A stretch of 46,920 nt of DNA. Origin: a virus. Of the stretch, positions 185 through 42,948 are shown one piece after another. The notes under the pieces were generated by a model. That model was not told the DNA's origin, searched no databases, and was given only the letters and a program-made list of their open reading frames with translations. The stretch's first letter is position 1. Each line of letters opens with the position of its first letter. The position numbers and the translations under genes were made by a program. The stretch lies in the IMG/VR virus record IMGVR_UViG_3300008267_000084, positions 1-46,920 of that record; one strand, 5' to 3'.

Positions 185-253
185 AAGATTTAAAGACCAG
201 TAATCTTTTTAATAATAGGCAAAAGACTTTTTAATAATACTTATTTTTATATT

Positions 254-21520: not shown

Positions 21521-21562
21521 TTTAATAAAATGCAAAACTACCTATTCAAAAGGTTAAATTTG
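21521..21562 (+). promoter_or_regulatory. Late-type promoter, copy 1 of the 16-base motif
   Basis: TTTAATAAAATGCAAA (21521-21536) is followed after 18 bases by TAAATTTG (21555-21562), and the start codon at 21567 is 4 bases further on. The same arrangement occurs at 38475-38516 and 42902-42943. There is no TTTG at -33; TGCAAA takes its place. Confidence 0.75.
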
Positions 21563-21566
21563 CAGT

Positions 21567-21947
21567 ATGTCGATATGTAGTCCTTGCTCTAAACTTAAAT
21601 CAATCAGCCTTTGTACTGATTCTATTGTGGTTGGTAAAGCACCACTAGCCTTAACTCCCTATGCTATTTACTTTAAGAACTTAGCAACAGGAAAGATACA
21701 CACGTATTACGTTACATCGGACGCATCGAGATACTTAACAATTACTTTAGATGATGGATTCCCATTAGCAACATTGACTTATTATGAGTTGTGGATTAAT
21801 ACTTTAGGGGACAGCATCGAATCACAAGAAGACTTATTAATAGGAGCAACAACAGACACTTGCTTTACTATACAAGCTGTAAATGTTTACAATTCTTACT
21901 ACGATATTAATCAGAATTATTCATCTCAAACACTAGAAGTATTATAA
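21567..21947 (+). CDS. Virion protein candidate, Cys-rich N-terminus
   Basis: A 126-residue protein (MSICSPCSKLKSISLCTDS...) with Cys at 4, 7 and 16, followed by a beta-sandwich-like sequence (YAIYFKNLATGKIHTYYVTSD...). It is the first gene after a late-type promoter and heads the tail gene block, so a tail or connector role is likely. The start is predicted leaderless. No family recognised. Confidence 0.65.
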   Translation: MSICSPCSKLKSISLCTDSIVVGKAPLALTPYAIYFKNLATGKIHTYYVTSDASRYLTITLDDGFPLATLTYYELWINTLGDSIESQEDLLIGATTDTCFTIQAVNVYNSYYDINQNYSSQTLEVL

Positions 21948-21949
21948 CT

Positions 21950-22054
21950 ATGGAAGCATTGATATTAATTATTACGCCTATTATTTGCATTGCACTATGT
22001 ATGCTTGAAATAAATATGGTAGACGAACAAGGCAATAAAAGAAAAATATGGTAA
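21950..22054 (+). CDS. Tiny membrane protein
   Basis: A 34-residue frame (MEALILIITPIICIALCML...) with one membrane segment and a charged end (VDEQGNKRKIW). It starts two bases after the preceding stop and overlaps the next gene by 7 bases, which supports real translation. Function unknown. Confidence 0.55.
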   Translation: MEALILIITPIICIALCMLEINMVDEQGNKRKIW

Positions 22055-22437
22055 CATTATTTTGGATAGTAGCATTTTGTTTAGGTTGGCGCATTGTAAC
22101 GGATGAGGGGCAACTATTACACTTCATTCGTAAACCTTTCGACACTAATTGGAATCATTTAGAAACAATATTAACTCGTATCGAACATTTTGAGAAGTAC
22201 GACAAGTCTTTAGTAGATGCTCTGAAATGGACGCTACTAAAGCACAAATTGATTAACTACTTTGGGAAACCATTTGTATTATGTATTACTTGCTTTGCGA
22301 GTATATGGGGGACGCTTGTGTTTGTTTCCTTGAATGGATTTACTATTCACTTGCTCCCTCAACTTATTATCACTATAATTTCTGCTTCATTCATTCAAAC
22401 ATTTATATGGTCATTGTATGCTAAGTATATTCAATAA
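22048..22437 (+). CDS. Membrane protein in the tail gene block
   Basis: A 129-residue protein with an N-terminal membrane segment (VTLFWIVAFCLGW) and two more near the C-terminus (FVLCITCFASIWGTLVFV and LIITIISASFIQTFIWSLY). The middle is a charged helix. A membrane protein between terminase and tape measure is unusual. It overlaps the next gene by 20 bases. Confidence 0.65.
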   Translation: MVTLFWIVAFCLGWRIVTDEGQLLHFIRKPFDTNWNHLETILTRIEHFEKYDKSLVDALKWTLLKHKLINYFGKPFVLCITCFASIWGTLVFVSLNGFTIHLLPQLIITIISASFIQTFIWSLYAKYIQ

Positions 22438-23086
22438 AGAGAGGTATTTTGCTAAGAATGAAAAGGATTTTTTAGCTTACCTTCATAAAAAGAACGGGAC
22501 TAAAATCACTAAGGATAACCTAACCTTTGCTTTCAACGACTTAGACGGGAATGGATATTATAAGTTCGGTAAAGACTTAGGATTGCCAATGGCTCGACTA
22601 GGTAAATTACACGAATACATTAAATGGCTTTCGGCAGGGATTACTGGTGATGAATTAGACGTATTACTAGACCAAGCAGATAAAGCTCTAACAGACGGGC
22701 TAAAAACAGGCAAAAATGCCTCAAAGATTGGCTTTGTATTATCAGAGATTAGAGATAGAAAGCAAATGGTTGTTCACGATGAGTTGTTTTATAACATTAT
22801 CGCAGTACAATTTGTAAGACACGATGAAGACGTTACTACGTTTAACAACGATATTCAGATGCAAAAGGTAATGGCATTCAAAAGGTTAAACACAGAAAAC
22901 GACACTTTTTTTTTGAACATTCACGAGTGCTTAAAAGCATTAAACTGGTCGACTATTACAATAGACGAGTTCAAGAGCTTACTTCTCGACTCTCAAACCC
23001 ACCGCAACGCAACAGCAAAGATGGTGGAAAGTCTATTCGGACAATTATCGGAAAGTCAGCTAGCGATTTTAAGCAGTCGCTTATGA
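22418..23086 (+). CDS. Tail assembly chaperone candidate
   Basis: A 222-residue helical protein just upstream of the tape measure gene, where tail assembly chaperones (lambda gpG-type) lie. It has a conserved-looking middle (YIKWLSAGITGDELDVLLDQADKAL). A run of nine T (22906-22914) near its 3' part offers a T-TTT-TTT slippery site for a -1 frameshift into the frame open to 23187; the shifted product would be 256 residues. Without a shift, its TGA overlaps the ATG of a 34-residue ORF. The call is by position and size. Confidence 0.65.
   Translation: MLSIFNKERYFAKNEKDFLAYLHKKNGTKITKDNLTFAFNDLDGNGYYKFGKDLGLPMARLGKLHEYIKWLSAGITGDELDVLLDQADKALTDGLKTGKNASKIGFVLSEIRDRKQMVVHDELFYNIIAVQFVRHDEDVTTFNNDIQMQKVMAFKRLNTENDTFFLNIHECLKALNWSTITIDEFKSLLLDSQTHRNATAKMVESLFGQLSESQLAILSSRL
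22906..22912 (+). other. Candidate -1 ribosomal frameshift site
   Basis: T-TTT-TTT in the frame of the chaperone candidate lies within a nine-T run. The -1 frame is open from here to the TAA at 23187 next to the tape measure. The region just after the site reads less naturally in the -1 frame than in the zero frame, so re-initiation at 23083 is the competing explanation. Confidence 0.35.
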
Positions 23087-23187
23087 TAATCTCGGGTAAT
23101 GATATTTCAGAATATCACGAGTTATTGAAGCTAAGTGTAGAGGATTTTTTAATAAGATTTAAACTTTTCATTGACGATTTAGAGTAA
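23083..23187 (+). CDS. Short second chaperone ORF or frameshift extension
   Basis: A 34-residue frame (MIISGNDISEYHELLKLSVEDFLIRFKL...) whose ATG overlaps the TGA of the chaperone candidate. Its stop overlaps the tape measure ATG (TAATG). It is either a separate coupled peptide or the C-terminal part of a frameshifted chaperone, as in gpG/gpGT pairs, where the extension binds the tape measure. Confidence 0.55.
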   Translation: MIISGNDISEYHELLKLSVEDFLIRFKLFIDDLE

Positions 23188-25433
23188 TGGCAGCAACGGA
23201 ACAAATCATAATTGAATATATTGCTCAAGTCGAGGGGATGAAAGCCCAACTTAAAACCGTTGAGGCTTCGCTAAAGCGTGTTGAAAATGCTGGTAAAGAA
23301 TCAGCAGATGCTACCAAAAGACACTTCCAATCATCAGCCGATTCTATTAAACAAGGTGCAACATCTATTGCTAGTGCATTAGGTTTAGCGTTTGGTGTTC
23401 ATAAGGTAATTGAGTTCGGTAAAGAGTCAATAAAAGCATTTACAGAGGCAGAAGAAAACGCACACAAGTTAAGATTTGCAGTAGAGAAAATAGGTGGTGA
23501 GGGGTCTAGTGCTTTTGGTAAGCTATTAAAGCAATCAGAGGAATTACAAAAGATTACTATATTTTCGGATGATTCAATCCAACAAGCCCAAACCGCTTTA
23601 GCAACATTCGGTTTAACATCAGACCAAATAGAAGCCCTTATCCCTCAGATTACGGATATGGCATCAGCTACGGGAACAGACTTAGCAACAGCTACCCAAA
23701 AAGCTATTCAAGGTATTAACGGGCAAACACGAGGGTTAAAAGAAGTTGGTATTCAGTTTAGTGATACAGGAAGTAAGACCGAAAACCTAGCTATCTTAAC
23801 AGAGAAGCTAACTAAGTTTCAAGGTGCAAGTGCTGAAGCATTAGAAACAACAGCAGGAAAGGCTAAGAGATTAGAAAACGCATTTGGTGATATTCAAGAA
23901 CGTATTGGAGAGTACTTAGTTGGTGAGGGTGCTGCGATATTAGATAACTTCGAAATAGTATTTGGCGGTAAGGCTCAAGAAATTGCAACAAGAAACGCAA
24001 CGGGTGGAGCTATTAAAATACTTGAGGAAGTTAATGAAAAGAACATCGAAAAGATTAAGTCGGGGGAGAAAACAAAGTATCAAGTAATCTTAGATAACAA
24101 TAAGTTTATCGCAGAGTTATTTGAGGCTAGAGGTAAACAAGAAAACGCAGAGCAACAAAAGAATATTGACGCTCAGATAAAGGCTGTTCAAAAGTTTAAC
24201 GAAGATTTACGTAATCTAGGTAAAGAGAATAAGATAAAAGATGACGCTACCACAGGCAAGGATGCACAAGTAAAAGAGCAAAAAGATTTACTTGAGGAAT
24301 TGCGTAATTTAGATATTCAAGCGGATGAAGCTAGTTTGGCTCAAATGGCAAAGAGTGAATCTGAAAAGATTGAGTTAGCTAGAGCAAGTGCAATCCAACA
24401 AGTAAAATTAGCCGAGAAAACCGCTATTGATTCAGGTGTTGCAGAGGCTGATGCTAAGTTAATATCCCAAAATGCGATAAGCAATATTAATAAGACGTTT
24501 GATGATAAACAATTAGACCAAGAAGAAAAACTTTGGCAAGAGGCTATTGCTATTGCAGAATCCGAAGGAGATAAAGAGGCTCAAGTTGTTGTAGGTAAGT
24601 TAAAAGAAAGATTAGCAGAGGAAGAAAGATTAGTAAAAGAGTCTGAGGCAAGAAAACAACAAGCAAGAAGACAAACTGAGGAAGCTGTTGGAGCTTCTAT
24701 TGATGCGTTTGCTCAAATATCAGCCAATGAAACAGAAAGAGAGATTCAGGATATTGATAAGAAAACTAACAAGCAGATTGAAAGTTTAAACTACCAATTA
24801 GAACATAAGTTAATCTCTCAAGAAACATACGACCAAAAGGTTGAGGCATTAGAAAAGGAGAAAGCGGAGAAACAAAGAAAATTAAAGAAGCAACAATTTG
24901 AAACTGATAGACAAATTGCACTTGTTAAGGCTATTATTGCAACAGCCCAAGCGGTTATCACTCAGTTTGCAGAAACGGGATACTACGGAGCTATATTGGC
25001 TGGTGTTGTGGGTGCTGCTCAAATATCAATCATTGCTTCTGAGCCTACACCACAATTTGAAAAGGGTGGTAAGGTAAAAGGCAAAAGACATAGACAAGGA
25101 GGTACTCTTATAGAGGCTGAAAAGGATGAGTGGATTATTAACAGAAAGGATTCCATCAAAAATGATAAGCTACTAGAAGCTATTAATAAAGGTAGTGCCG
25201 ACAAGTTTATTTTTGACCACTATATTGCTCCATCGTTAAAGGCTCAACAAAAAAAGAATATTGAAGCTAGAGAAAAGTCATTTGCTAGTAACTTAGCAAG
25301 TTCAATGAATCTTAATTTTAAAGATGGCAATTTATTAGACAGCCTAAAGCAAGTAAGAAAAAACGATAAAGAGATTGCACACTTTTTAGTTAGAGAGTTA
25401 AAGCCACGAGATAGAGATGCAAGGAGGATTTAA
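23187..25433 (+). CDS. Tail tape measure protein
   Basis: A 748-residue protein, long and Ala/Gln/Glu/Lys-rich, with extended coiled coils (residues 10-50 and 410-570). A hydrophobic stretch follows at about 575-612 (ATAQAVITQFAETGYYGAILAGVVGAAQISI). The C-terminus has the FEKGGKVKGKRHRQGGTLIEA phrase common to tape measure proteins. It sets tail length and helps DNA entry. At roughly 1.5 angstroms per residue it predicts a tail near 110 nm. It starts at TAATG after the chaperone frame. Confidence 0.9.
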   Translation: MAATEQIIIEYIAQVEGMKAQLKTVEASLKRVENAGKESADATKRHFQSSADSIKQGATSIASALGLAFGVHKVIEFGKESIKAFTEAEENAHKLRFAVEKIGGEGSSAFGKLLKQSEELQKITIFSDDSIQQAQTALATFGLTSDQIEALIPQITDMASATGTDLATATQKAIQGINGQTRGLKEVGIQFSDTGSKTENLAILTEKLTKFQGASAEALETTAGKAKRLENAFGDIQERIGEYLVGEGAAILDNFEIVFGGKAQEIATRNATGGAIKILEEVNEKNIEKIKSGEKTKYQVILDNNKFIAELFEARGKQENAEQQKNIDAQIKAVQKFNEDLRNLGKENKIKDDATTGKDAQVKEQKDLLEELRNLDIQADEASLAQMAKSESEKIELARASAIQQVKLAEKTAIDSGVAEADAKLISQNAISNINKTFDDKQLDQEEKLWQEAIAIAESEGDKEAQVVVGKLKERLAEEERLVKESEARKQQARRQTEEAVGASIDAFAQISANETEREIQDIDKKTNKQIESLNYQLEHKLISQETYDQKVEALEKEKAEKQRKLKKQQFETDRQIALVKAIIATAQAVITQFAETGYYGAILAGVVGAAQISIIASEPTPQFEKGGKVKGKRHRQGGTLIEAEKDEWIINRKDSIKNDKLLEAINKGSADKFIFDHYIAPSLKAQQKKNIEAREKSFASNLASSMNLNFKDGNLLDSLKQVRKNDKEIAHFLVRELKPRDRDARRI

Positions 25434-29133: not shown

Positions 29134-29136
29134 AAA

Positions 29137-29673: not shown

Positions 29674-29682
29674 GTTATAATT

Positions 29683-29724
29683 GCGTTGTAACTTAGTGCG
29701 TTGTAGCCTATTCGTTCAAGGCTA
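29683..29724 (+). promoter_or_regulatory. Leader of the tail-tube candidate: direct repeat and hairpin
   Basis: GCGTTGTA occurs at 29683-29690 and 29698-29705. A 6-bp hairpin TAGCCT/AGGCTA (29704-29709 with 29719-29724, 9-base loop) follows. The leader then becomes pure AT and ends in A7 before the ATG at 29757. It may be a weak terminator, an RNA stabiliser or a translation signal. Confidence 0.45.
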
Positions 29725-29756
29725 AATTGAATGATTAAAAATTAAATTATAAAAAA

Positions 29757-30317: not shown

Positions 30318-30337
30318 TTCTTGGTTTTAATGGGGAG

Positions 30338-30397: not shown

Positions 30398-30403
30398 CCA
30401 ACA

Positions 30404-31228
30404 ATGACTCAAGGCGTTATAATCCTTTCACTAAACAAGCCCTCATATTCAATGGGAGCGTATAATCTAGCTTTATCAATTAAGCATTACAACCCTTCTA
30501 TACATATAACATTAGTAACGGATAACGAACACCAAAAGCATTACAGACCCGAACACTATTTAGTATTTAACTCTATTAAGACAATCGCAAGGCATCATTA
30601 TATTAACGATGGAATGTTTCAACCAGCATTAGCTAAGTTAAATATTTATCGTTATTCGTCCTACGATAAAACGCTTTATATTGATGCAGATAGTTTAGTC
30701 TTACAAGATATTCAACCAATGTTCGATAAGCTATTAGGTAACGAATTTAAGGGCAATGTGCTAGATAATTACGTACAATGGACTGATGCGGAAACATTTA
30801 AAGACTTCTTTGGAGTAGAGCAAGGGTTAATGATTAACTCTAGTTGGTTTTATTTCGAAGGTAAAAGTGTATTTGAACAGGCGAATGACTTTTATAGTAA
30901 GGGATTTGATAAAGAAAAGATAACGCCTAAATGGGGGCTGTCATATCCCGATGAACTATTCTTAAATGCTTCGCTAATCAAATTAGGTATTAATCCAAAG
31001 GTTGATTTTGAGCCTATGTTCTTTGGTAATCTAATAGATGAACGCACCCTATCTGCGTTGCAAAATGACTTCTTTATGTTTACTTTATATGGTGGACGGA
31101 ACACGGTAAGAAGTATTTACGTAGATTTCTACGATAGGTTGTGTCAAAATATGAACAGAGCAAGAGGCTTTGAACACTTGTTTAAAGCTAGAGATATATT
31201 GAATAATAAACACGTTAATAATAAATAA
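30404..31228 (+). CDS. GT8-like glycosyltransferase
   Basis: A 274-residue protein from the ATG at 30404 (a TTG three codons upstream lies in the -7 element and is rejected). It has the GT-A fold pattern: SMGAYNLALSIKHYNPSIHITLVTD at 15-39 in two parts, KTLYIDADSLVL with the metal-binding DAD (94-96), and a C-terminal PDELFLNASLIKLG region. It transfers a sugar from a nucleotide donor, acceptor unknown. It opens the glycan cassette. Confidence 0.75.
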   Translation: MTQGVIILSLNKPSYSMGAYNLALSIKHYNPSIHITLVTDNEHQKHYRPEHYLVFNSIKTIARHHYINDGMFQPALAKLNIYRYSSYDKTLYIDADSLVLQDIQPMFDKLLGNEFKGNVLDNYVQWTDAETFKDFFGVEQGLMINSSWFYFEGKSVFEQANDFYSKGFDKEKITPKWGLSYPDELFLNASLIKLGINPKVDFEPMFFGNLIDERTLSALQNDFFMFTLYGGRNTVRSIYVDFYDRLCQNMNRARGFEHLFKARDILNNKHVNNK

Positions 31229-31232
31229 AACT

Positions 31233-31403
31233 ATGGAACTAACAGAAGAAGAAGTGTTAATCTTAAAGGAACTTATAAAGACTAATAATCTATATATGAA
31301 AGGCAAGGTTTTAACTAACCCTAAAAGAGAAAGTCTTATAATGAGAATACAAGAAGAATCAAAAAAGAAATGGTATCAAAAAATCTTTAGTTTGAATGAT
31401 TAA
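31233..31403 (+). CDS. Small helical protein in the glycan cassette
   Basis: A 56-residue charged protein (MELTEEEVLILKELIKTNN...) with two helices and the ending KKKWYQKIFSLND. It starts 4 bases after the glycosyltransferase and overlaps the next ORF by 8 bases. Function unknown. Confidence 0.6.
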   Translation: MELTEEEVLILKELIKTNNLYMKGKVLTNPKRESLIMRIQEESKKKWYQKIFSLND

Positions 31404-31524
31404 ACACATCGACATAAACAAAGTAAACGGCTCTACTACAATAGTAAAAGGTGTGCCTTGTTTTAGTATTGCTGTTATGTATCAGTTTGATAAATTGTAT
31501 TATACTTATATTTGTTTAAACTAA
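31396..31524 (+). CDS. Small ORF in the glycan cassette
   Basis: A 42-residue frame (MIKHIDINKVNGSTTIVKG...) whose ends overlap both neighbours, the last base being shared in TAATG. The chain of overlaps supports translation. Function unknown. Confidence 0.55.
   Translation: MIKHIDINKVNGSTTIVKGVPCFSIAVMYQFDKLYYTYICLN
31486..31514 (+). promoter_or_regulatory. Internal promoter TTTG-N17-TATATTTG
   Basis: TTTG at 31486-31489 and TATATTTG at 31507-31514 lie inside the 42-residue ORF, 10 bases before the ATG at 31524. It could give extra transcription of the rest of the glycan cassette. Confidence 0.6.
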
Positions 31525-31628
31525 TGATAGAGAAAGCTATAATATTAATTGTATTTAGTGCTATTGTTTTATTCTTAGGCGGTATGCCTATTTGGATTGA
31601 ATGGCTTGAAAATAGAAAGAAAAAATGA
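31524..31628 (+). CDS. Tiny membrane protein in the glycan cassette
   Basis: A 34-residue frame: one membrane segment (AIILIVFSAIVLFLGGM) and a basic end (WLENRKKK). TAATG upstream and ATGA downstream link it to both neighbours. Two similar tiny membrane proteins occur later in the cassette. Confidence 0.65.
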   Translation: MIEKAIILIVFSAIVLFLGGMPIWIEWLENRKKK

Positions 31629-32338
31629 TTTGCGTTACTTCCATAGCACCCAAACACATTAACGAAGGCATACAGGATAAAGCTGTAAAGTCTTGGATTG
31701 CTCTAGGGTTAAAGGTTTATTCAATGAATAACCAAGCGGAGTGCGACTTATTAGCACCTTTGTATCCTAATGTAACCTTCATTCCTACATTAAGAACAAT
31801 GGAGCATACATTCGGTAAACCTTACCCATCCGTTAATGCTATAATGGATTGGTGTAAGGGACAAATGGAGGCTCACTTCTGTATTATTAATTCAGACATT
31901 GAGTTAAGATGTGATGCTGAAACACTAGAGCGGATTAAAAAAGAAATGGACACATCTATTGTAATGGCTAATCGAGTTAATCATAATGGCGATTATGTAG
32001 GTGCGCAATATTTAGCAGGGATTGATATGTTTTTTATTCACAAAAAATGGTTATATTCGTTCGCTCAAACAATCTTTTGTTTAGGTCAATGCCACTTTGA
32101 TTATTGGATTCCTTATTCAGCAAATCAGAAAGGTATTGAACTAACATTTGTAAAGCAGAACATAGCGTTTCACTTAAATCATAATGCACAATATAACCAC
32201 GACCAATGGTTAAAAACGGGACGTTATTTTATTTGGGAGGCTGGATTATACAACTTTGATAGTACAACGGGAGTAGGTAAAATGAGTACCTACGTTTTTA
32301 ATTACATTTATACTAACGCTAAACGTAAGCAGATATGA
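31625..32338 (+). CDS. Putative glycosyltransferase (GT-A type)
   Basis: A 237-residue protein beginning MICVTSIAPKHINEG with an acidic CIINSDIEL site at about 86-94 that could bind metal and nucleotide sugar, then YLAGIDMFFIHKKW and HFDYWIPY. The pattern resembles small GT-A enzymes of phage and capsule clusters. Its start overlaps the tiny membrane gene and its end overlaps the next transferase. Donor and acceptor are unknown. Confidence 0.65.
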   Translation: MICVTSIAPKHINEGIQDKAVKSWIALGLKVYSMNNQAECDLLAPLYPNVTFIPTLRTMEHTFGKPYPSVNAIMDWCKGQMEAHFCIINSDIELRCDAETLERIKKEMDTSIVMANRVNHNGDYVGAQYLAGIDMFFIHKKWLYSFAQTIFCLGQCHFDYWIPYSANQKGIELTFVKQNIAFHLNHNAQYNHDQWLKTGRYFIWEAGLYNFDSTTGVGKMSTYVFNYIYTNAKRKQI

Positions 32339-33075
32339 GTAAGTCGATTGATATTTTTTACAAGACCTATCACCAAGATAAGAAGTGGCTTGAATACTCT
32401 TTGCGTTCGCTAACTAAGTTCGTAACAGGATATAGAAACGTAGTTATATTAATCCCTATAAGAGATAAAAGGTATTTTGAGGGGATTAGTTTTCCTGAAC
32501 GCACAATTATACATTTTGTTAAGGAGTATGGAGATGGATATTTATATCAGCAAGTTTGCAAGATTCAAGGACACAAGTATTCCGATGCTGATTTTATTTT
32601 ATTTTCCGATTCTGATTGTATATTCGACCACCCTATTAACTTACAAGATTTTATAGCCGATGATAAGCCCGAAATATTATACACAGAATACGAGAAGTCA
32701 GGCGGTCTTATTTGGAAAAAACCAACAGAAGATTTTATAAAAGCACCAGTACAATATGAGATGATGCGCAGAAATTGTCTTATCTATCACACATCAACAT
32801 TAAAAGCTATTGCAGAATATGAGCCTAATTTAGAGCATATTATTATGACTTCGCAAAGGTTTTCAGAGTTTAATGCGATGTCTGTGTATGCTTGGACTTA
32901 TGAAAAAGATAGGTACACTTTTATTAATACGGACGAATGGGAATATGTTCCCCCAAAAGCAACTCAGCTTTGGAGTAAGTGTAAAGATGGAAACACAGAA
33001 GACCACAAAAAAGAATACCAAAGAGCGATTGAAACAATAAACAGAGTATTTGAATTAAACTTAACTGAACTATGA
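32335..33075 (+). CDS. Putative glycosyltransferase, DUF6492-like
   Basis: A 246-residue protein with a GT-A start (IDIFYKTYHQDKKWLEYSL), FILFSDSDCIF with the acidic SDSD site (91-94), and KAIAEYEPNLEHIIMTSQ-type acceptor region. It overlaps both neighbours by 4 bases, so the enzymes are translated together. Substrate unknown. Confidence 0.65.
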   Translation: MSKSIDIFYKTYHQDKKWLEYSLRSLTKFVTGYRNVVILIPIRDKRYFEGISFPERTIIHFVKEYGDGYLYQQVCKIQGHKYSDADFILFSDSDCIFDHPINLQDFIADDKPEILYTEYEKSGGLIWKKPTEDFIKAPVQYEMMRRNCLIYHTSTLKAIAEYEPNLEHIIMTSQRFSEFNAMSVYAWTYEKDRYTFINTDEWEYVPPKATQLWSKCKDGNTEDHKKEYQRAIETINRVFELNLTEL

Positions 33076-33623
33076 CAGACGTGAACGGACAACTACCATT
33101 TGAAGGAGATACATTTATTCCACAAGAGATACTTAAACTAAAAGAAAAGTTTGGGATAAGGAATGTTTTAGAAACAGGGAGTCAATATGGAGCTAGTTTA
33201 GAATGGTTTCATAATAACTTTAATGTTGCACTTGGGTGCGAACCCAATAAAGAGTTTTTTAAGATAGCAAAAGATAAAGGGCTTAATGTTTATAATCAAT
33301 ATTCATTAGATTTTTTAAGCACTTCAATTGGTTATAAATCAAAGACACTTATCTACATCGACTCCCATTGGCACGACACACCTTGTCCGTTAAAAGACGA
33401 ACTAAAACTAATAGCAGAACTAAACATTAATCCCGTTATCTGTATTCACGATTTCAAAGTGCCAAACAAAGACTTTGGATATGATGAGTATGATTATGCT
33501 TTAGAGTTGTCAGAAATAGAACCATTGCTACCTGCTATTTATCCTAATGGTTACGAGTATCATTATAATACAGAAGCAAACGGAGCAAATAGAGGAATCA
33601 TTTTTATTTATCCTAAAATTTAA
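33072..33623 (+). CDS. Class I SAM methyltransferase-like protein
   Basis: A 183-residue protein with NVLETGSQYGAS (residues 28-39, SAM-site glycine loop), ALGCEPN, and TLIYIDSHWHDTPCPLKDEL. These fit the FkbM-like or related small methyltransferases of sugar clusters. It may methylate a glycan made by the adjacent transferases. Confidence 0.65.
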   Translation: MTDVNGQLPFEGDTFIPQEILKLKEKFGIRNVLETGSQYGASLEWFHNNFNVALGCEPNKEFFKIAKDKGLNVYNQYSLDFLSTSIGYKSKTLIYIDSHWHDTPCPLKDELKLIAELNINPVICIHDFKVPNKDFGYDEYDYALELSEIEPLLPAIYPNGYEYHYNTEANGANRGIIFIYPKI

Positions 33624-33626
33624 ACT

Positions 33627-33806
33627 ATGGTAGCATTTATTTTCTTTTTATGGTTTTTTATTTATTTGTTTGGATTAATTCTTTGTGCGAAATACACATA
33701 TAAACATCCAAATGCATTTTTAATTTGGGTTTGTGGGTGGGGCTTTATCGGTATTGCTTCGATTCTTTTAGTTGCATATTTTCATAATTGTAATTGTTGT
33801 CAATGA
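33627..33806 (+). CDS. Small two-span membrane protein
   Basis: A 59-residue protein with two hydrophobic segments (FIFFLWFFIYLFGLILC and WVCGWGFIGIASILLVAYF) and a Cys-rich end (HNCNCCQ). Its TGA overlaps the next ATG. It is the second of three small membrane proteins set between glycan enzymes. Confidence 0.65.
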   Translation: MVAFIFFLWFFIYLFGLILCAKYTYKHPNAFLIWVCGWGFIGIASILLVAYFHNCNCCQ

Positions 33807-34501
33807 AAAAAGTCCTAATCCTAGTCGTTTCCTGCGAAGAAAAGCCATACGGACAAATGATTTATAATTCATTAGCTACGTGGGATTCAACAGAAGTTGA
33901 AGGAGTGCAAACTATTTACTATTGTGGATTGTCACCACACCCCGACACTGATAAGATAAAGCACTTTCCTATACACGATGGACTTTATGAAATGGGTAAA
34001 AAAGGATTACTAGCGTATGAGTGGGCTTTAAATACTTTGGAGTTTGATTATGTCGCTAGAGTTAATTCGAGTTGTTACGTATCAAAAAAGAAGCTATTAG
34101 ATTACGTTCAAACACTACCAACCGATAATGTATTTGAGGGACTAAAAATTGAAGATAAAGAAGATTGGATTTGGGGAGGTGGGCAGTTTATAATTTCTAA
34201 AGATGTACTCCAAAAGCTAGTTGATAATAAAGAGCATTGGCGACACGATGAAATGGAAGATAAGGCTATGAGTTTTCTAGCTACTAAATTGGGAGTTCCA
34301 TTTAAACAAGGTAACGCTTGTAGTATAAATAAACATGAAAATAATTGGGAGTTATTGTCGTATGGTTTTGGAAAAAGTATTATATTTACAGACTTCAAAG
34401 ATGTAGCTAATAGCCCTCATTATTTTTGGAGGGTAAAACAGGATTTACAAAGGCACATTGATAAACAGATAATGAAGGAATTACATGGAGTTAACGCCTA
34501 A
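33803..34501 (+). CDS. Putative glycosyltransferase
   Basis: A 232-residue protein from the ATG at 33803 (ATGA overlap; an upstream start at 33794 is not needed). It has KVLILVVSCEEKPYGQM at the start, FDYVARVNSSCYV at the position of a GT-A acidic site, and a WGGGQFIISKDVL phrase as in fringe-like (GT31-type) transferases. The canonical DxD is replaced by RVNSS, so activity is uncertain. Confidence 0.6.
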   Translation: MKKVLILVVSCEEKPYGQMIYNSLATWDSTEVEGVQTIYYCGLSPHPDTDKIKHFPIHDGLYEMGKKGLLAYEWALNTLEFDYVARVNSSCYVSKKKLLDYVQTLPTDNVFEGLKIEDKEDWIWGGGQFIISKDVLQKLVDNKEHWRHDEMEDKAMSFLATKLGVPFKQGNACSINKHENNWELLSYGFGKSIIFTDFKDVANSPHYFWRVKQDLQRHIDKQIMKELHGVNA

Positions 34502-34679
34502 ACAACAAGCTGATAACCTATGGAAAATTCACGCTTTCTACTGGATAGATGATACGCTAGAAGCAAAGCAAAGAATATCAATGCAGATAGGCGAAATAGT
34601 AAGAACGCTAAAGAAATACGGAATAAAGGATTTAGATTATTGGCACGAAGTTAAACGTCATATATACGAAATGGAATGA
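34485..34679 (+). CDS. Conserved small phage protein
   Basis: A 64-residue protein (MELTPKQQADNLWKIH...EAKQRISMQIGEIVRTLKK). The TPKQ-A-L start and AK-ISMQIGEI middle recur in small early proteins of Bacteroidota phages. It overlaps the genes on both sides. Function unknown. Confidence 0.65.
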   Translation: MELTPKQQADNLWKIHAFYWIDDTLEAKQRISMQIGEIVRTLKKYGIKDLDYWHEVKRHIYEME

Positions 34680-35494
34680 TAAACACTATTCAAATAAAAG
34701 CAGGGCAATTTCAAAAAGGGACTCATTCAGTAGGCTCAGGAAGTGAAGTCGTTTTAATCATTGGTTCGTGTCGTGCTGTCCCGTATTTAACCTATCTAAA
34801 CGATTGGAATTCCCAAAATGGTAACAGATTTACTATACACTTTATTGACCCGTTCAACTGGAATTGGGATATGCAAGAAAACAGAACAGACTACAAAGCC
34901 GAATTAATAAAACAAGAAACAAACCCTTACCTATTAGATGTTCTTAAAAACTGCTCAATCTTTATACACGAATATTACAACAATGCCGAAATGTTTAACT
35001 GCGATAAAACAGCAGAAAAGAACATCTATCAATTCGGACTTAGTCCAAAACAAGATATTACGCTACCGAATTACAACGATATTTTTATCCTAACTAGAGA
35101 GATTGTTTCCTTTGATTTAGAGATTAGAAAAATGGCTATCCAAGATTATAACGTAAATGGAAAGTTAAGCGATTACACGTTGCAAAAGATAGAGAATGTA
35201 CGAGAAAAGAACTTAGAAAAGTTTTACGATATATGCTCAAAAACTGACGTACCTGAATTTGCTGAAATATTCAAAACACATTATAAGCAAGTAAGATTCT
35301 TTTGGACTTTTAATCATGTAGCCCGAAGATTCAACCAAGTTATTTTTGACCTTATTAATAAAAAGTTTTTGCGATTAGAAGGATTAAAAATGACTGATGA
35401 GGATTTGTTTTCAAATAATTATACTTATCTTTGCGAATACGATAAAGGATATTCGTGGAGAGAGGAAGTTAAACCATTAAAAGAAATACTATGA
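34676..35494 (+). CDS. WcbI-like polysaccharide-modification protein
   Basis: A 272-residue protein. VVLIIGSCRAVPYLTYL (residues 26-42) resembles the GNCQ-type start of WcbI proteins, which are thought to acetylate capsule polysaccharide. A helical middle and C-terminal FFWTFNHVARRFNQV follow. It overlaps neighbours by 4 bases each. An acyl-transfer role in the glycan pathway is tentative. Confidence 0.5.
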   Translation: MINTIQIKAGQFQKGTHSVGSGSEVVLIIGSCRAVPYLTYLNDWNSQNGNRFTIHFIDPFNWNWDMQENRTDYKAELIKQETNPYLLDVLKNCSIFIHEYYNNAEMFNCDKTAEKNIYQFGLSPKQDITLPNYNDIFILTREIVSFDLEIRKMAIQDYNVNGKLSDYTLQKIENVREKNLEKFYDICSKTDVPEFAEIFKTHYKQVRFFWTFNHVARRFNQVIFDLINKKFLRLEGLKMTDEDLFSNNYTYLCEYDKGYSWREEVKPLKEIL

Positions 35495-35595
35495 GTGATA
35501 AAAATCTAATACGTGTAATTAAAATATTGTTTCCAATAGTTGTGATTGGAGCAATTAGTAATATAATATTATTAATAATAAAATTAATTCAATGA
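35491..35595 (+). CDS. Tiny membrane protein in the glycan cassette
   Basis: A 34-residue frame (MSDKNLIRVIKILFPIVVIGAI...) with one membrane segment. ATGA overlaps join it to both neighbours. It is the third such protein in the cassette. Confidence 0.6.
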   Translation: MSDKNLIRVIKILFPIVVIGAISNIILLIIKLIQ

Positions 35596-36140
35596 AAACA
35601 CTAAAAGAAATCTTTGCAAGAATTGGAAACCACACAGGAGTGGATATTGGATGTAACGATAAGGATGGAATCCATACCTACGTAGACACCTATGATAAAC
35701 TATTTGCACCATTCCAAAATGGTTGCTCTTTTATGGAAATCGGATTAGCAATGGGTGACTCAATCGACTTATTTGATGAGTACTTTGATAACTCTGAGAT
35801 TGTTGGAGTAGATATTTCAGTTGTTTTCCCACCTAAAAAATATAAGAATGAGGTCGCAATTATCGAAGCGGATGCTACAAAAGCAAACTTCTTAAAGGCT
35901 ATTGAGTTTAAAACATTTGATATTATTATTGATGATGGTAGTCACATGACTCAAGACCAGTTAGACACGTTCGACCTATTAAAAGGTAAGATGAACAAAG
36001 GCGGTGTTTATGTGATTGAAGATTTATTAGCTTTGGATGTTGAAAGACATCGCTATATGAGAATGCACAAGAACGTAGAGATAATTGATATGCGTTCTAA
36101 TGGCAGATTCGACAATGCACTTGTAATTATAAGATTTTAA
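35592..36140 (+). CDS. Class I SAM methyltransferase (sugar O-methyltransferase type)
   Basis: A 182-residue protein with GCSFMEIGLAMGDSIDLF (SAM loop, about 44-61), IVGVDIS, FDIIIDDGSHMTQDQLDTF (about 108-126) and GGVYVIEDL. This is the pattern of macrocin-O-methyltransferase-like enzymes of glycan and antibiotic clusters. It probably methylates a sugar hydroxyl. Confidence 0.75.
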   Translation: MKTLKEIFARIGNHTGVDIGCNDKDGIHTYVDTYDKLFAPFQNGCSFMEIGLAMGDSIDLFDEYFDNSEIVGVDISVVFPPKKYKNEVAIIEADATKANFLKAIEFKTFDIIIDDGSHMTQDQLDTFDLLKGKMNKGGVYVIEDLLALDVERHRYMRMHKNVEIIDMRSNGRFDNALVIIRF

Positions 36141-36184
36141 CTTAACAACTAAAACTATGGCTAAACTAAATAAACCACCAAGCT

Positions 36185-37414
36185 ATGAGTTCACCAAAAG
36201 AACACACCAATTGTCGAGTATGTAACTCTGACAAATTAATTAAATATTTAGACTTAGGATTAATGCCTATGGCTAATAGCCTTTTTGACTCCGAGAAAGA
36301 GGCAAAAAATGCAAAGCGTTATCCTTTAGAGTTAATGTTTTGCGATGATTGTGGACTATCCCAATTATCAATCGTAGTAGACCCTAAAGAACTTTACGAG
36401 TACTACACTTATAGAAGTTCGGTAAATGGCGGGTACGTTCAGCACTCTCGACAAATGGCTAAAGACCTAGCTAACAAATATAACTTAAATAAAAATAGTT
36501 TTCATATTGACGTTGCAGGAAATGATGGGGCTTTGCTAAAAGAGTTCAAAGATGAATTAGGATTGAGAGTTTTAAACATCGACCCAGCTAAAAACCTTTG
36601 CAAGATAGCTAGAGAAAATGGTGTCGAATCGTTTGCTGATTTCTTTAACTACGAGAATTCTGATATTGTTTTAAAGTCATTTGGTAAAGCTGATTTAATC
36701 ACAGCAACAAATGTATTTGCTCACGTAGATAATGTAACAGACTTCTTAAATGCTAGTAAAAACCTATTAAATAAAGACGGGGTTTTAGTATTAGAGTTTC
36801 CTTACTTAGTAGACTTTATCGAAAACAATGAGTTTGATACTATTTACTTTGAGCATTTATCTTACTTTAGTTTACTACCTATTATGAGATTGTGTTCTAA
36901 TTCAGATATGAAAATTATTGATGCAGAAAAGAAATCAATTCATGGAGGGACTATTCGAGTAACGATTGCACACGAAGAAAGTAAATACGAGATTGCACGA
37001 AATGTATCTACGTTTATTAACCTAGAGATTCAAAAAGGGTACAACAAAATTGATACTTACTTAGGTTGGTCGGATAAAGTTCAAGATATGATTGAGAATT
37101 TAAACCTTAACTTACAAGCATTAGATGGCAATTGTATTGGGTTTGGGGCATCCGCTAAAGGTAATACTTTGTTAAACTCATCTAAGATTGATTCAAAGTT
37201 AATTCGTTTTATAGCAGATGAAACACCTGAAAAGATAGGTAAATATTCGGCAGGAACAGGAATCGAGATTGTTTCAATCGACAAAGTAAAACAAACGGAT
37301 GCGGAATATTGTTTGATACTTGCTTGGAACTTCAAGGACGAGTTGATGAAAAAGTTAAATCCGATTTATAAGGGTAAATATTTAATACCTATTCCTGAGT
37401 TGGAGTGTATTTAA
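36185..37414 (+). CDS. Deoxysugar C-methyltransferase-like protein
   Basis: A 409-residue three-part enzyme: an N-terminal zinc part (CRVC at 10-13, LDLGLMPMANSL, then CDDCGLSQL), a central SAM domain (HIDVAGNDGALLKEF), and a C-terminal domain (CIGFGASAKGNTLLN). This is the architecture of sugar C-methyltransferases such as TylC3/NovU. It is the last gene of the cassette, just before a terminator. Confidence 0.85.
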   Translation: MSSPKEHTNCRVCNSDKLIKYLDLGLMPMANSLFDSEKEAKNAKRYPLELMFCDDCGLSQLSIVVDPKELYEYYTYRSSVNGGYVQHSRQMAKDLANKYNLNKNSFHIDVAGNDGALLKEFKDELGLRVLNIDPAKNLCKIARENGVESFADFFNYENSDIVLKSFGKADLITATNVFAHVDNVTDFLNASKNLLNKDGVLVLEFPYLVDFIENNEFDTIYFEHLSYFSLLPIMRLCSNSDMKIIDAEKKSIHGGTIRVTIAHEESKYEIARNVSTFINLEIQKGYNKIDTYLGWSDKVQDMIENLNLNLQALDGNCIGFGASAKGNTLLNSSKIDSKLIRFIADETPEKIGKYSAGTGIEIVSIDKVKQTDAEYCLILAWNFKDELMKKLNPIYKGKYLIPIPELECI

Positions 37415-37419
37415 AATAA

Positions 37420-37436
37420 GGGGGTGATTAGCCCCC
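37420..37436. terminator. Bidirectional terminator between convergent genes
   Basis: GGGGG (37420-37424) and CCCCC (37432-37436) form a short GC stem. GTTTTA follows on the plus strand and TTATTTT on the minus strand. It separates the glycan cassette from the minus-strand SPFH cassette. Confidence 0.7.
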
Positions 37437-37443
37437 GTTTTAC

Positions 37444-38259
37444 TTATCGAATGTTTTGTAATAGCATTGGAGCTTGACCATAAAGCGGTGTGCTTCCGTT
37501 CCACTTCTCAATAAATTGTTGTTGAATAAGCATTGGAGTTAATGTTTGTTGCTTTAGCTTGTTAGCTTGTGCCTCTCCTTCGGCTTGAATAATTAAAGCA
37601 TCTGAATAGGCTTTTGCATCAACAATCCTTTTCTTTGCTTGTGCCTCGTTAATTCTTAATTCGTTTTCAACTTTCATCGCATCCTGAACAGATTTATTCT
37701 TTGCATTAACAGCATCTACAATAGTTTGTGGATATTTTAAACCGCTTGTTAGTTGCTCTAGTTTAAATCCTTCGGCTTGTAAAACACCCGCTAAAGATTT
37801 CTGTACATCTGTTTCAAACTTCTCACGATTACTTACTATTTCGTCCGTTGTGTATTTATTCATTTGTAAACGAAACGCATCTTTAACATAGTTTAGAATA
37901 GTAGTTTTTCCTACTTCATCCAACCCCTTTCTATACTTTCTAAATATGTTAGGACTATTGCCAATAACGATATTGTAAGATAGAGTAGGGTCTACAATAA
38001 ACTCACTTCCATCTTTAGCATTGACATTAAAAGCCTCGTAGTCGATTGTTTGAATAAACGTAGCGTATTCTTCTACATCTTCTGTAATAGGGTTATACCA
38101 AACACGACCAGTGACTAGGGTTACATCTTGCACCCCTTTGTCGCTTCCGTATTGTTTGATTAAAATACCCTCGTGTCCCGCATCAATTCTTGTACAACAA
38201 GAAAGGCAAATGATAATAATTAGGAATGTTAAAATCCCTCCAATAGTTAGTGTTCTCAT
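37444..38259 (-). CDS. SPFH/prohibitin-like membrane protein
   Basis: A 271-residue protein with an N-terminal membrane or lipoprotein signal (LTFLIIIICLSCCTRID; a Cys in LSCC could be lipidated). The SPFH domain (residues 28-190) has GHEGILIKQYGSD and AFNVNAKDGSEFIVDPTLSYNI. A long Ala/Glu/Lys helix follows (ELRINEAQAKKRIVDAKAY...QAEGEAQANKL), the coiled coil of prohibitins. It probably forms a ring on the membrane. It lies in a minus-strand cassette among plus-strand late genes. Confidence 0.85.
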   Translation of the reverse strand: MRTLTIGGILTFLIIIICLSCCTRIDAGHEGILIKQYGSDKGVQDVTLVTGRVWYNPITEDVEEYATFIQTIDYEAFNVNAKDGSEFIVDPTLSYNIVIGNSPNIFRKYRKGLDEVGKTTILNYVKDAFRLQMNKYTTDEIVSNREKFETDVQKSLAGVLQAEGFKLEQLTSGLKYPQTIVDAVNAKNKSVQDAMKVENELRINEAQAKKRIVDAKAYSDALIIQAEGEAQANKLKQQTLTPMLIQQQFIEKWNGSTPLYGQAPMLLQNIR

Positions 38260-38456
38260 AGTTTTTTGTTTTTAAATTGTTTAATTAAATAATTTATTAA
38301 TATAAAATTTCCTATAACCAAGCCACAGGATAATGCTATTCCGACTAATACTGCAACGTCAGATTGTTGCCTTAATAATTCCACAATCCACGAGAATAGA
38401 TAAAGTTCTGCGAATATCAATAGTGGCAATGCAAATAATAAATACTTTAGTTTCAT
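38256..38456 (-). CDS. Small two-span membrane protein paired with the SPFH protein
   Basis: From the ATG at 38456 (a longer frame from 38489 includes the promoter and is rejected) the protein has 66 residues with two membrane segments (YLLFALPLLIFAELYLFSWIV and VLVGIALSCGLVIGNFILINYL) and a basic end. Its stop overlaps the SPFH start (ATGA). It may be an SPFH partner. Confidence 0.65.
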   Translation of the reverse strand: MKLKYLLFALPLLIFAELYLFSWIVELLRQQSDVAVLVGIALSCGLVIGNFILINYLIKQFKNKKL

Positions 38457-38460
38457 ACTG

Positions 38461-38490
38461 CAAATATACAACTTTTTAATAAAATGCAAA
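38461..38490 (-). promoter_or_regulatory. Leftward promoter TTTG-N18-TATATTTG
   Basis: On the minus strand TTTG (38490-38487) and TATATTTG (38468-38461) are 18 bases apart. The ATG at 38456 is 4 bases downstream, so the message should be leaderless. Its -33 box is the complement of the TGCAAA end of the rightward late motif. Confidence 0.8.
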
Positions 38491-38516
38491 CTATTATTTA
38501 ATAATCCTTACTTTTG
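38475..38516 (+). promoter_or_regulatory. Late-type promoter, copy 2 of the 16-base motif
   Basis: TTTAATAAAATGCAAA (38475-38490) is 18 bases from TACTTTTG (38509-38516), and the ATG at 38520 is 3 bases further. It drives the portal/head block and overlaps the leftward promoter of the SPFH cassette. Confidence 0.75.
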
Positions 38517-38519
38517 AGT

Positions 38520-38642
38520 ATGCGAAAAACTATACGAAAAGACCGACCACAAGTCAACAATTGCGGTGGCAAAAAACGTGGAAGCTGTAATGTTTGGGCA
38601 GGAGATACTATTGTAAAAACAAAAGTAAAAGTAACTGCTTAA
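38520..38642 (+). CDS. Small basic protein before the portal
   Basis: A 40-residue frame (MRKTIRKDRPQVNNCGGKK...) with a basic start, two Cys and a Lys/Val end. It is the first ORF after a late-type promoter and its TAA overlaps the portal ATG. A short virion or regulatory peptide is possible. Confidence 0.6.
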   Translation: MRKTIRKDRPQVNNCGGKKRGSCNVWAGDTIVKTKVKVTA

Positions 38643-40468: not shown

Positions 40469-40471
40469 TAA

Positions 40472-41377
40472 ATGCCATCATTCGAAGACCTTATAAAGCA
40501 AAAGAGTAAGCGACTTGAGGATATACCATTAGAACTACAAACACTTGCTGAAAAGCAACAAGGTAAGATTCTAAATGAGATTATCGCTAAACTCGATAAG
40601 CTAGAAAAGGTAAACGGGCAAATCAAAATAAGCTCTAAAAATCTACGGGCTATTGCTGATATATCGGACGACTTAAAATCTATTTTTGTAAATAAAGATT
40701 ACTTAAAAGCTGTTAGTGAGTTTGCAAAAGAATTTGACGTACAAGCGGGTGTTAATGATAATTTAATTAAGAAAGGATTCGGAGCGGTTGAAACACCATT
40801 AGCATCTAAAAGTTATTTGGATATAGCTAAACGTAACGCTGTTGATGCTTTAGCTGGTGAGCCTTATGTAAACATTTCAGTAAAGCCGATTCAGTCAATA
40901 CTTGAGAATGCAGTAGTAAACGGGGCGAATATAAACGACACAATTGATTCATTAAGACTATTTATTGAGGGGGACGAGGGGACTGCAAGTCAAATATTAA
41001 AGTACACAAAGCAAATAACAAACGATTCGTTTGCGATTGCTGATAGAAGTTATACGTCTATTGTTTCGGAGGAATTAGATAACGATTGGTTTTACTTTAG
41101 TGGAACGGTTGTAAAGAATACAAGATGTTTTTGTGAGCAAAGGGTAGGTAATTATTACCACTATAAAGAAATCGAATCTTGGGGCAGAGGGGAAAACTTA
41201 GGAACTTGTGATACGGGCGATGGAACTTGGGGTGGAGAGATAGATGGAACGAACGAAAGTACAATCTATTCTTACTTAGGTGGATATAATTGTTTGCATT
41301 CATTAATTCCTGTTTCAGAGGCTATCGTTCCTGATTCTGATTTAGAAAGAGCAAGAAGTTTAGGTTATATCGAATAA
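40472..41377 (+). CDS. Minor head / head morphogenesis protein (SPP1 gp7-like)
   Basis: A 301-residue helical protein ending in the SPP1 gp7/Mu gpF pattern: YFSGTVVKNTRCFCEQRVGNYY in two parts, and GGYNCLHSLIPV. These proteins sit inside the portal-capsid region and affect DNA delivery. It follows the portal by 3 bases. Confidence 0.8.
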   Translation: MPSFEDLIKQKSKRLEDIPLELQTLAEKQQGKILNEIIAKLDKLEKVNGQIKISSKNLRAIADISDDLKSIFVNKDYLKAVSEFAKEFDVQAGVNDNLIKKGFGAVETPLASKSYLDIAKRNAVDALAGEPYVNISVKPIQSILENAVVNGANINDTIDSLRLFIEGDEGTASQILKYTKQITNDSFAIADRSYTSIVSEELDNDWFYFSGTVVKNTRCFCEQRVGNYYHYKEIESWGRGENLGTCDTGDGTWGGEIDGTNESTIYSYLGGYNCLHSLIPVSEAIVPDSDLERARSLGYIE

Positions 41378-41383
41378 TATTAT

Positions 41384-41391
41384 TATGTTTG
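41384..41391 (+). promoter_or_regulatory. -7 element TATGTTTG next to a start codon
   Basis: TATGTTTG at 41384-41391 is 4 bases before the ATG at 41396. No clear TTTG or 16-base late motif lies at -33, so it may be a weak or activator-dependent promoter. Confidence 0.4.
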
Positions 41392-41395
41392 CAAT

Positions 41396-41764
41396 ATGAA
41401 AAAACTATGGATTTGGTTTAAGAGTTTATTCTCTTTTAAGTTCGTTCATCCAGTAATTGACGAGCCGCTACAAACAGCTATAACAGACAAGTTAGATGCT
41501 AGACGTAAAGAACAAGAAGCCCAAACGGATAAGTATAATGAGATATTAAGTAGTTATTTGCGTACCTACTTTTCTACTCCATACGCTAATAATGAAGAAA
41601 TGTCAATAGCGTTCGACTTAACTAATCAAAAGTGGAAACAACTATGTAAAGATGTTAATAGAACCAATAGGCTAATTAACATTAAGAAAGAGGCTTTTCA
41701 AAACAGAGTAAAAATGACAATCGAACAATTAAAACAAAACAAACAAAATGAACTACAAAACTAA
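41396..41764 (+). CDS. Hypothetical protein of the head block
   Basis: A 122-residue basic helical protein with an aromatic N-terminus (MKKLWIWFKSLFSFKF) that could lie on the membrane, and a coiled-coil end. It overlaps the next gene by 17 bases. A head-assembly helper is possible by position only. Confidence 0.6.
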   Translation: MKKLWIWFKSLFSFKFVHPVIDEPLQTAITDKLDARRKEQEAQTDKYNEILSSYLRTYFSTPYANNEEMSIAFDLTNQKWKQLCKDVNRTNRLINIKKEAFQNRVKMTIEQLKQNKQNELQN

Positions 41765-42017
41765 CGCAGATGGAGATGTAATGGTAAGGGATTCAAAAGG
41801 AAACCCTAAATACATTTCTAAAAAACTAGCAATGGATTCACAACTAATGAAGGCTATGCACTTCGAAGTTGTTGAAGCACCCGTATCTTTTGAAGTAGAA
41901 TTAGAGCAAGGACAAATGGATTCTGAAAGATTAGAAGTCGTTGCTCCTATTGAAGAAATTAAAACAGAAGTAGCTGAAAGCGTTCCAGCTAAACCGAACG
42001 CTAAAAAAACCAAATAA
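41748..42017 (+). CDS. Hypothetical acidic protein of the head block
   Basis: An 89-residue protein with a compact N-terminus (GDVMVRDSKGNPKYISKKLAM) and a Glu/Val-rich, then Lys-rich end (AKPNAKKTK). It starts inside the preceding gene and ends 3 bases before the scaffold candidate. Function unknown. Confidence 0.6.
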   Translation: MNYKTNADGDVMVRDSKGNPKYISKKLAMDSQLMKAMHFEVVEAPVSFEVELEQGQMDSERLEVVAPIEEIKTEVAESVPAKPNAKKTK

Positions 42018-42020
42018 ACT

Positions 42021-42848
42021 ATGGCAGTAGAAGCAAAAGAAGTCTTTGAATACTTAGGTATCAAAGCAGACGACATTAAAGACTTAGACACGTTCAAAGC
42101 AACGTTCGAAAAAGACTTTATTAAACAATCAAACATTACAGAAGAACACGAATCAGTAAAAAAGATTCTTGGTAAAACTTTTGGAACTCTCGAAAATGAG
42201 ATTAAGAAAGTGGCTAAAAACTTTGAGTTAGAAGTAGATTTTAATTCAGAAGATTTGAAAGGCAAAAAAGTAACGGACAAATTAAACTTTGTTGTTAGCG
42301 AGTATGCTAAAAAACAAAAATCTGTTATTGACGAACTAACTGAAAAAGCAGGGAAAGGCAATGACGAGAAAGTAAAAGAGTTAGAAGAAAAGTACACAAA
42401 GGCAATTGGTAAAGCAAAAGATTATGAGAGCCTTTTAAAAGCTACTACTAGCGACTTTGAAACATTCAAACAAAGTGCTGAGAGTGAAAAGAAAGCTGTT
42501 AAATTAGACTTCTTTAAAACTCAAGAGTTAAGCAAAGTAAAATTTAAGGCTGATATTAATGAGTTTGAAAAAGAAGGTTACTTATCTAAAATCGAAAAGA
42601 ATTACAAGTTTGATTTAGATGAAACTGGTAAAGCGATTATCTTGGATAAAGAAGGTAAGCGTATTCCAAACCCTAAAGTAAACGGAGCGTTTATGGATAT
42701 TGCTGATGTGTTACAAGAGGAAGCTGTTAAAGGTAAGTTGTATCAGTTAAATGCTGATGCAGGGAAAAGAGTAGTAACAACTACTACAACCGCATCTACT
42801 ACAACACCACCAGCGAAAGCTGTACGAGTAAGAGCAACACCTTTATAA
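42021..42848 (+). CDS. Scaffolding protein candidate
   Basis: A 275-residue, Lys/Glu-rich, highly helical protein with long coiled-coil runs (DELTEKAGKGNDEKVKELEEK...). A Thr-rich hinge (TTTTTASTTTPP) separates a basic tail (VRVRATPL). Composition, size and place directly before the capsid gene match phage scaffolds, whose C-terminal basic part binds the capsid protein. A strong terminator follows. Confidence 0.75.
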   Translation: MAVEAKEVFEYLGIKADDIKDLDTFKATFEKDFIKQSNITEEHESVKKILGKTFGTLENEIKKVAKNFELEVDFNSEDLKGKKVTDKLNFVVSEYAKKQKSVIDELTEKAGKGNDEKVKELEEKYTKAIGKAKDYESLLKATTSDFETFKQSAESEKKAVKLDFFKTQELSKVKFKADINEFEKEGYLSKIEKNYKFDLDETGKAIILDKEGKRIPNPKVNGAFMDIADVLQEEAVKGKLYQLNADAGKRVVTTTTTASTTTPPAKAVRVRATPL

Positions 42849-42868
42849 TTTTTACCACTCCTAGACTA

Positions 42869-42900
42869 AGCCCTACCTATTAATTTAGGTGGGGCTTTCT
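42869..42900 (+). terminator. Intrinsic terminator before the capsid gene
   Basis: AGCCCTACCTA (42869-42879) pairs with TAGGTGGGGCT (42886-42896) over 11 positions with one G-U. TTCTTTTT follows. It ends the portal-scaffold transcript so that the capsid gene has its own. Confidence 0.85.
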
Positions 42901-42901
42901 T

Positions 42902-42943
42902 TTTAATAAAATGCAAAAATAGTTTTTTTAATACTTAAATTTA
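42902..42943 (+). promoter_or_regulatory. Late-type promoter, copy 3, for the capsid gene
   Basis: TTTAATAAAATGCAAA (42902-42917) is 18 bases from TAAATTTA (42936-42943), an A for G variant of the -7 box. It would start a leader of about 110 bases before the capsid ATG at 43061. Confidence 0.7.
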
Positions 42944-42948
42944 CACCA

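Follow-up and report, generated by a model that had tools for sequence, protein, structure and literature searches.

A 16-base element at fixed distance from host-type -7 boxes: a putative promoter class before the virion gene blocks of a phage genome

Introduction

What reads the start sites of the virion genes in this phage of Bacteroidota bacteria, the host polymerase by itself or the host polymerase together with a phage protein? The question is raised by a 16-base element, TTTAATAAAATGCAAA, that recurs before gene blocks in the window, by which we mean the whole stretch of 46,920 nucleotides analysed here (IMG/VR record IMGVR_UViG_3300008267_000084). An exact direct repeat of 114 bases at the two contig ends (1-114 and 46807-46920) makes it very likely that the map is circular and complete, with 46,806 bases. 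Genes for recombination and replication occupy the arm read leftwards (18852 to 6537); the arm read rightwards starts at 19019, takes in the virion genes, crosses the junction and continues to about 6364, the endolysin gene included. Rfam and tRNA scans were empty.

Some features of the map lie apart from the element. Between the tail and portal blocks there is a long run of glycosyltransferase-like and other unassigned genes (30410-37414), and a bidirectional terminator of the form GGGGG...CCCCC (37420-37436) separates converging genes. Two minus-strand genes (37444-38453; a moron), one of the Band_7 type (HflC-like) and one small, are absent from the relative introduced below. At 18058-18186 a 42-aa ORF has 96.7% DNA identity to that relative and its neighbours align poorly, which may reflect either recent exchange or strong constraint.

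The element, its spacing and the genes behind it

Exact copies of the element lie at 21521, 38475 and 42902, where the initial annotation had placed them, and at each copy a -7-like box (TAAATTTG, TACTTTTG and TAAATTTA, all of the form TAHHTTTR) begins exactly 18 bases past the 16-mer, again as that annotation had described. A fourth site has the same spacing, TTTAATAATAGGCAAA-N18-TATTTTTA. The features are listed below, with bases kept in IMGVR_UViG_3300037042_001630, the sole close relative found (about 78% DNA identity; hereafter the relative).

208-223, plus strand: fourth copy of the element, TTTAATAATAGGCAAA, two mismatches to the 16-mer; before the gene 254-805
242-249, plus strand: -7 box TATTTTTA, 18 bases past the element; GTG at 254, 4 nt after the box
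21521-21536, plus strand: 16-base element TTTAATAAAATGCAAA of the putative tail-block promoter; 16/16 kept
21555-21562, plus strand: -7 box TAAATTTG; 8/8 kept; ATG at 21567, 4 nt past the box, predicted leaderless
38475-38490, plus strand: 16-base element TTTAATAAAATGCAAA of the putative portal/head promoter; 16/16 kept
38509-38516, plus strand: -7 box TACTTTTG; ATG at 38520, 3 nt past the box
38520-38642, plus strand: ORF of 40 aa (MRKTI...KVTA) with a predicted leaderless start; stop codon and portal start overlap in TAATG
42868-42897, plus strand: intrinsic terminator right before the putative capsid promoter; its T tract reaches the element
42902-42917, plus strand: 16-base element TTTAATAAAATGCAAA of the putative capsid-block promoter; 15/16 kept
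42936-42943, plus strand: -7 box TAAATTTA; 6/8 kept
42948-43060, plus strand: predicted leader of the capsid-block mRNA, about 113 nt, apparently non-coding; high identity to the relative

The genome holds no further copy at 0-1 mismatch, and a minus-strand near-match at 18983-18998 was rejected as a promoter site, being without a box at N18. TTTAATAAAATGCAAA stands alone among the 16-mers of the genome in having three copies, and no 16-mer reached at least three copies in any of 500 Markov sequences (orders 1, 3 and 5). All three copies are intergenic, in a genome with an intergenic share of 7.8%, and same-spaced copies inside genes, which the initial annotation had named as speaking against its proposal, were not seen; the 38475 copy overlaps a mechanical minus-strand ORF opening with TTG (38256-38489), the likely ATG of that gene being at 38453. 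From the per-position frequency of TANNTTTR (0.0021), our own arithmetic gives about 1.5e-7 as the chance that all three copies share one offset, whichever of 16 it may be; this agrees with the earlier remark that the fixed spacing is hard to get by chance. The shorter pattern TGCAAA-N17-19-TANNTTTR has four matches in the genome against 0.35 expected, one of the four being a minus-strand overlap of the 21521 site.

The four sites stand before four successive blocks of the right arm. The exact copies had been said to front tail, portal/head and capsid genes; PHROGs supports the first two, by the tape measure in the block after 21521 and by the portal at 38642, whereas the product at 43061 has no PHROGs or Pfam match and is a capsid candidate from gene order only. 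The terminase lies upstream of the site at 21521 rather than in the block behind it, and the block starting at 254 leads on to the endolysin. On the best reading, a single class of phage genes, comprising the tail, portal/head, capsid and 254 blocks, has these four sites as its promoters, and the nature of these genes suggests late timing.

Conservation in one relative and restriction to its lineage

In the relative, the portal, terminase and capsid candidate show 82-91% identity, and the three exact sites are present at orthologous places with N18 unchanged, the outcome for which the initial annotation had proposed to look. Over these sites the element keeps 47 of 48 bases, the box 21 of 24 and the spacer 26 of 54; the difference between element and spacer has p = 5e-9 (Fisher). 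At the portal site the left-hand flanking gene is another one, since the relative lacks two of the window's minus-strand genes, and the element is still intact; between copies of the element, flanks and spacers are unrelated. The counterpart of the fourth site is a variant, shifted by one base and without GCAAA. A match at 34908 of the relative was rejected as a further site, having no box at N18. This conservation is that of two genomes, the window and its relative, because only one relative carries the element.

Elsewhere the arrangement is rare. A scan of IMG/VR for the element followed at N18 by a TANNTTT or TWNNTTT box gave matches in the relative only. With spacers of 4-34, viral contigs gave 85 stretches; among the 80 of 85 listed, N18 occurred three times, each time in the relative, and no other contig had two copies. 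A peak at N6 in that scan looks like one conserved coding stretch. The looser pattern AATAAWATGCAAA-N16-20-TANNTTT gave scattered single matches in viral contigs, with N18 not in excess. About 85,000 cellular genomes yielded four single matches (Lactobacillus, Syntrophomonadaceae and two Bacteroidota), of which at least one lies inside a gene and two are outside Bacteroidota. Since there is no comparable cluster in the rest of IMG/VR or in these cellular genomes, the element is restricted to this lineage. No further close relative came up with portal, capsid or DnaA-like queries, or with the terminase as a query in genomes. Two contigs with 70% identity in the terminase (G002 and G003) are fragments ending at that gene, with the virion promoters outside them. 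Flavobacterium phage 11b, Cellulophaga phi10:1 and Polaribacter P12002L/S were rejected as carriers: they have the same terminase family as the window, and match the element only at 2-3 mismatches. Footprinting with the relative and lineage restriction together make a distinct, conserved class of putative promoters before the virion blocks well supported.

Promoter anatomy and sigma factor use

In F. johnsoniae, transcription starts 4-5 nt after the -7 box (box at -12 to -5), and a recognisable -33 element is often missing from promoters (PMC6847099). By this rule the element spans -46 to -31 and lays TGCAAA over the -33 region. The earlier observation that TTTG gives way to TGCAAA at -33 extends to the fourth site, in that TTTG is found at none of the four; TGCAAA stands at three and GGCAAA at the fourth. 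Because flavobacterial promoters commonly lack a -33 element (PMC6847099), bare absence of TTTG proves little, and for the same reason the presence of two promoter classes in one genome is the better evidence. Other intergenic boxes of the window (4417, 19007, 30390 and 31507, and 18942, 18892 and 38468 on the minus strand) are mostly preceded by TTTG or TTG at a distance of 17-22 nt. The minus-strand box at 38468 belongs to the promoter of the Band_7 gene and its small neighbour, and its TTTG comes from the 16-mer read in reverse complement; the element is thus common to this promoter and the divergent one of the portal/head block. Canonical sigma-ABfr promoters (TTTG / TAnnTTTG) have the same -7 box and the same predicted box-to-start distance as the sites described here, but carry TTTG at -33 where these have TGCAAA inside a conserved 16-mer. 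Compared with TAnnTTTG, TAAATTTG and TACTTTTG are exact, and TAAATTTA and TATTTTTA end in A. We infer from sequence that the four sites act as promoters, and on the best reading they would keep the host-type -7 half and swap the other half for a phage-specific 16-mer.

The same layout might be taken for constitutive host promoters, in which the 16-mer, with 14 of its 16 bases A or T, would be an A/T-rich UP-like element beside a weak -33 (ATGCAAA) and unmodified host polymerase would need no phage factor. Intact -7 boxes speak for it, as does the frequent lack of a recognisable -33 in flavobacterial promoters (PMC6847099). Yet an UP element is not expected to be kept base for base, as 47 of 48 positions are beside a diverged spacer, cellular genomes give isolated matches only, and TTTG-type promoters are used elsewhere in the same phage, which leaves this explanation unlikely. 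Reading of the element by an activator of the host's own, or by one of its alternative sigma factors, we consider very unlikely. Alternative sigma motifs do exist in flavobacteria (SM4-6 in F. psychrophilum; PMC9723704), but a host regulon should give many copies in some Bacteroidota genome and is made unlikely by the four isolated matches in about 85,000; the -7 box is also of the primary-sigma type, unlike SM6 with its CGT box. It is hardly credible that the 16-mer is a packaging, replication or recombination site or a recent duplication, as sites which a phage DnaA domain-IV protein could bind for replication, given the constant 18-base distance to a conserved -7 box and the single orientation of the copies, always 5' of gene blocks with unrelated flanks and spacers.

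As a whole, the best explanation is that these are sigma-A promoters in which a phage-specific element, to which a phage protein probably binds, accompanies the host -7 box; we would give it roughly two chances in three. The initial annotation had proposed a late class depending on a phage activator or altered sigma use; the conserved class before virion blocks stands, and scans of most left-arm and regulator-like proteins (Pfam, PHROGs and NCBIfam) gave no phage sigma factor or RNA polymerase.

Predicted leaderless starts and the capsid-block leader

At three of the four sites a start codon follows the box closely, beginning at the fifth base at 254 (GTG) and 21567 (ATG) and at the fourth at 38520 (ATG), that is, after gaps of 4, 4 and 3 nt, and these codons are conserved in the relative. 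Since ATG or GTG openings of at least 40 codons fill 0.5% of positions, three of four starts at this distance are not due to chance. The frames behind them are conserved as well: from GTG in the gene 254-805, with 9 synonymous changes in 25 codons in the gene from 21567, and with 19 identical, 15 synonymous and 6 nonsynonymous codons in the 40-aa ORF at 38520-38642. Under the F. johnsoniae spacing rule, three of the four promoters are predicted to start the message at or within one base of the start codon, the gene at 254 among those with a predicted leaderless mRNA. Such messages would be unusual, leaderless mRNAs making up about 4-6% of mRNAs in these hosts (5.5% in F. psychrophilum; in B. 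thetaiotaomicron about 3.7% with leaders <10 nt).

When phages 11b, phi10:1 and P12002L were pooled with the window and its relative, 13 TAHHTTTG boxes lay at a gap of 4-5 compared with about one per position elsewhere, an enrichment pointing to a putative general class of leaderless flavobacterial phage mRNAs. A distance of 4-5 nt from -7 box to ATG is commoner than other distances in phages 11b, phi10:1 and P12002L.

The capsid-block promoter is predicted to give no leaderless start and to have a conserved non-coding leader instead. The terminator before it also occurs in the relative, with stem bases changed and mostly still pairing. Within the leader (42948-43060), indels relative to the other genome break any common frame, and no stable fold was found (z 0.53), a value on which a structured RNA was rejected; a translational control site is possible. 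The leader contains two copies of CGTAGGC-n3/4-ATCCTTT.

Candidate activators

A phage-coded activator for the element is likely. The small zinc-ribbon, RHH and HTH proteins coded at 17732, 18179 and 16585 had been suggested as binders, a suggestion that fares poorly. The zinc-ribbon protein is diverged in the relative, in a comparison of regulators limited by left-arm genes missing there. RHH proteins read DNA with their N-terminal strand. In the 18179 protein this strand differs between the two phages and the C-terminal half is identical, so it fits poorly as a binder of sites that are identical. For the 16585 protein no family was found, and its model (pLDDT 61) was too poor for use. The better candidate is encoded just before the terminase genes.

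19007-19014, plus strand: -7 box TATATTTG of a canonical TTTG-type promoter, before 19019, the DnaA-like gene and the terminase
19324-19719, plus strand: candidate activator, a DnaA domain IV (HTH) standing alone and carrying a beta-hairpin insert

The promoter at 19007 has the form TTTGCA-N18-box with ATG 4 nt downstream, and its arrangement is identical in the relative. A DnaA domain IV fold for the 19324 protein is supported by profile (Pfam Bac_DnaA_C, E 4.5e-5, under the curated cut-off) and by model (pLDDT 82.7; Foldseek to 3pvp and 1j1v with probability 1.00 and TMt 0.86-0.88). This predicted fold is that of the DnaA-box binding domain; unlike full DnaA, the 131-aa protein is domain IV alone, without the AAA+ ATPase module and with the hairpin insert, and TTTAATAAAATGCAAA contains no DnaA box. 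The RDHST motif, which we take to be the signature of DnaA domain IV, is not kept. The protein is 63% identical in the relative, its second helical pair (NRK.PE..MASYLAC.DLL) being mostly identical. Stand-alone DnaA domain-IV proteins are widespread in phages, and this one may act in replication. From gene position and conserved HTH residues we infer it to be the preferred single candidate. That a DnaA domain-IV protein has turned activator, replacing the -33 contact at Bacteroidota sigma-A promoters and switching on virion genes with mostly leaderless mRNAs, is in its full form rather unlikely.

Proposed mechanism and known systems

In the mechanism that we favour, host RNA polymerase carrying the primary sigma factor of Bacteroidota would read the -7 box (TAHHTTTR, -12 to -5), and the 16-bp phage-specific element (-46 to -31), in place of TTTG at -33, would be bound by a phage-coded activator that holds the polymerase or substitutes for the contact of sigma region 4 with -33. 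The need for an activator would make the promoter class depend on earlier phage gene expression. The 19324 protein, as best candidate, would be expressed with the terminase from its canonical promoter, and three of the sites would yield leaderless mRNAs, with transcription beginning at the start codon or no more than one base from it.

In T4 middle promoters, which work by sigma appropriation, the host -10 is kept, the -35 is replaced by a phage MotA box (consensus WWWTGCTTtA) 12 +/- 1 bp off, and an early phage protein activates (PMC2988021). By analogy the layout described here appears to work like these MotA/AsiA promoters, with a host -10-type element kept and a phage element over the -35 region at fixed spacing, although by sequence it is not a member of that system: TTTAATAAAATGCAAA is no MotA box, lying 18 bp from its box at -46 to -31 with a Bacteroidota sigma factor, and the sites are few, stand before virion blocks and would give leaderless mRNAs. 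Scanning with Pfam, PHROGs and NCBIfam, which covered most of the left-arm proteins and of those resembling regulators, gave neither MotA nor AsiA; highly diverged forms could escape it. The late promoters of Mu (C), P2 (Ogr) and Firmicutes phages (ArpU, RinA, LtrA) depend on activators, each of which turns on several virion promoters via one common site. Their site sequences and positions differ from those here, and no homologues of C, Ogr, ArpU, RinA or LtrA were seen among the proteins scanned.

Biological meaning

In the literature consulted (open papers only, hence weak evidence) neither a late activator nor a mapped class of late promoters turned up for a phage of Bacteroidota. With its small size and strict spacing in both phages, the element is a direct handle for finding the activator, and is itself a possible inducible promoter for Bacteroidota bacteria.
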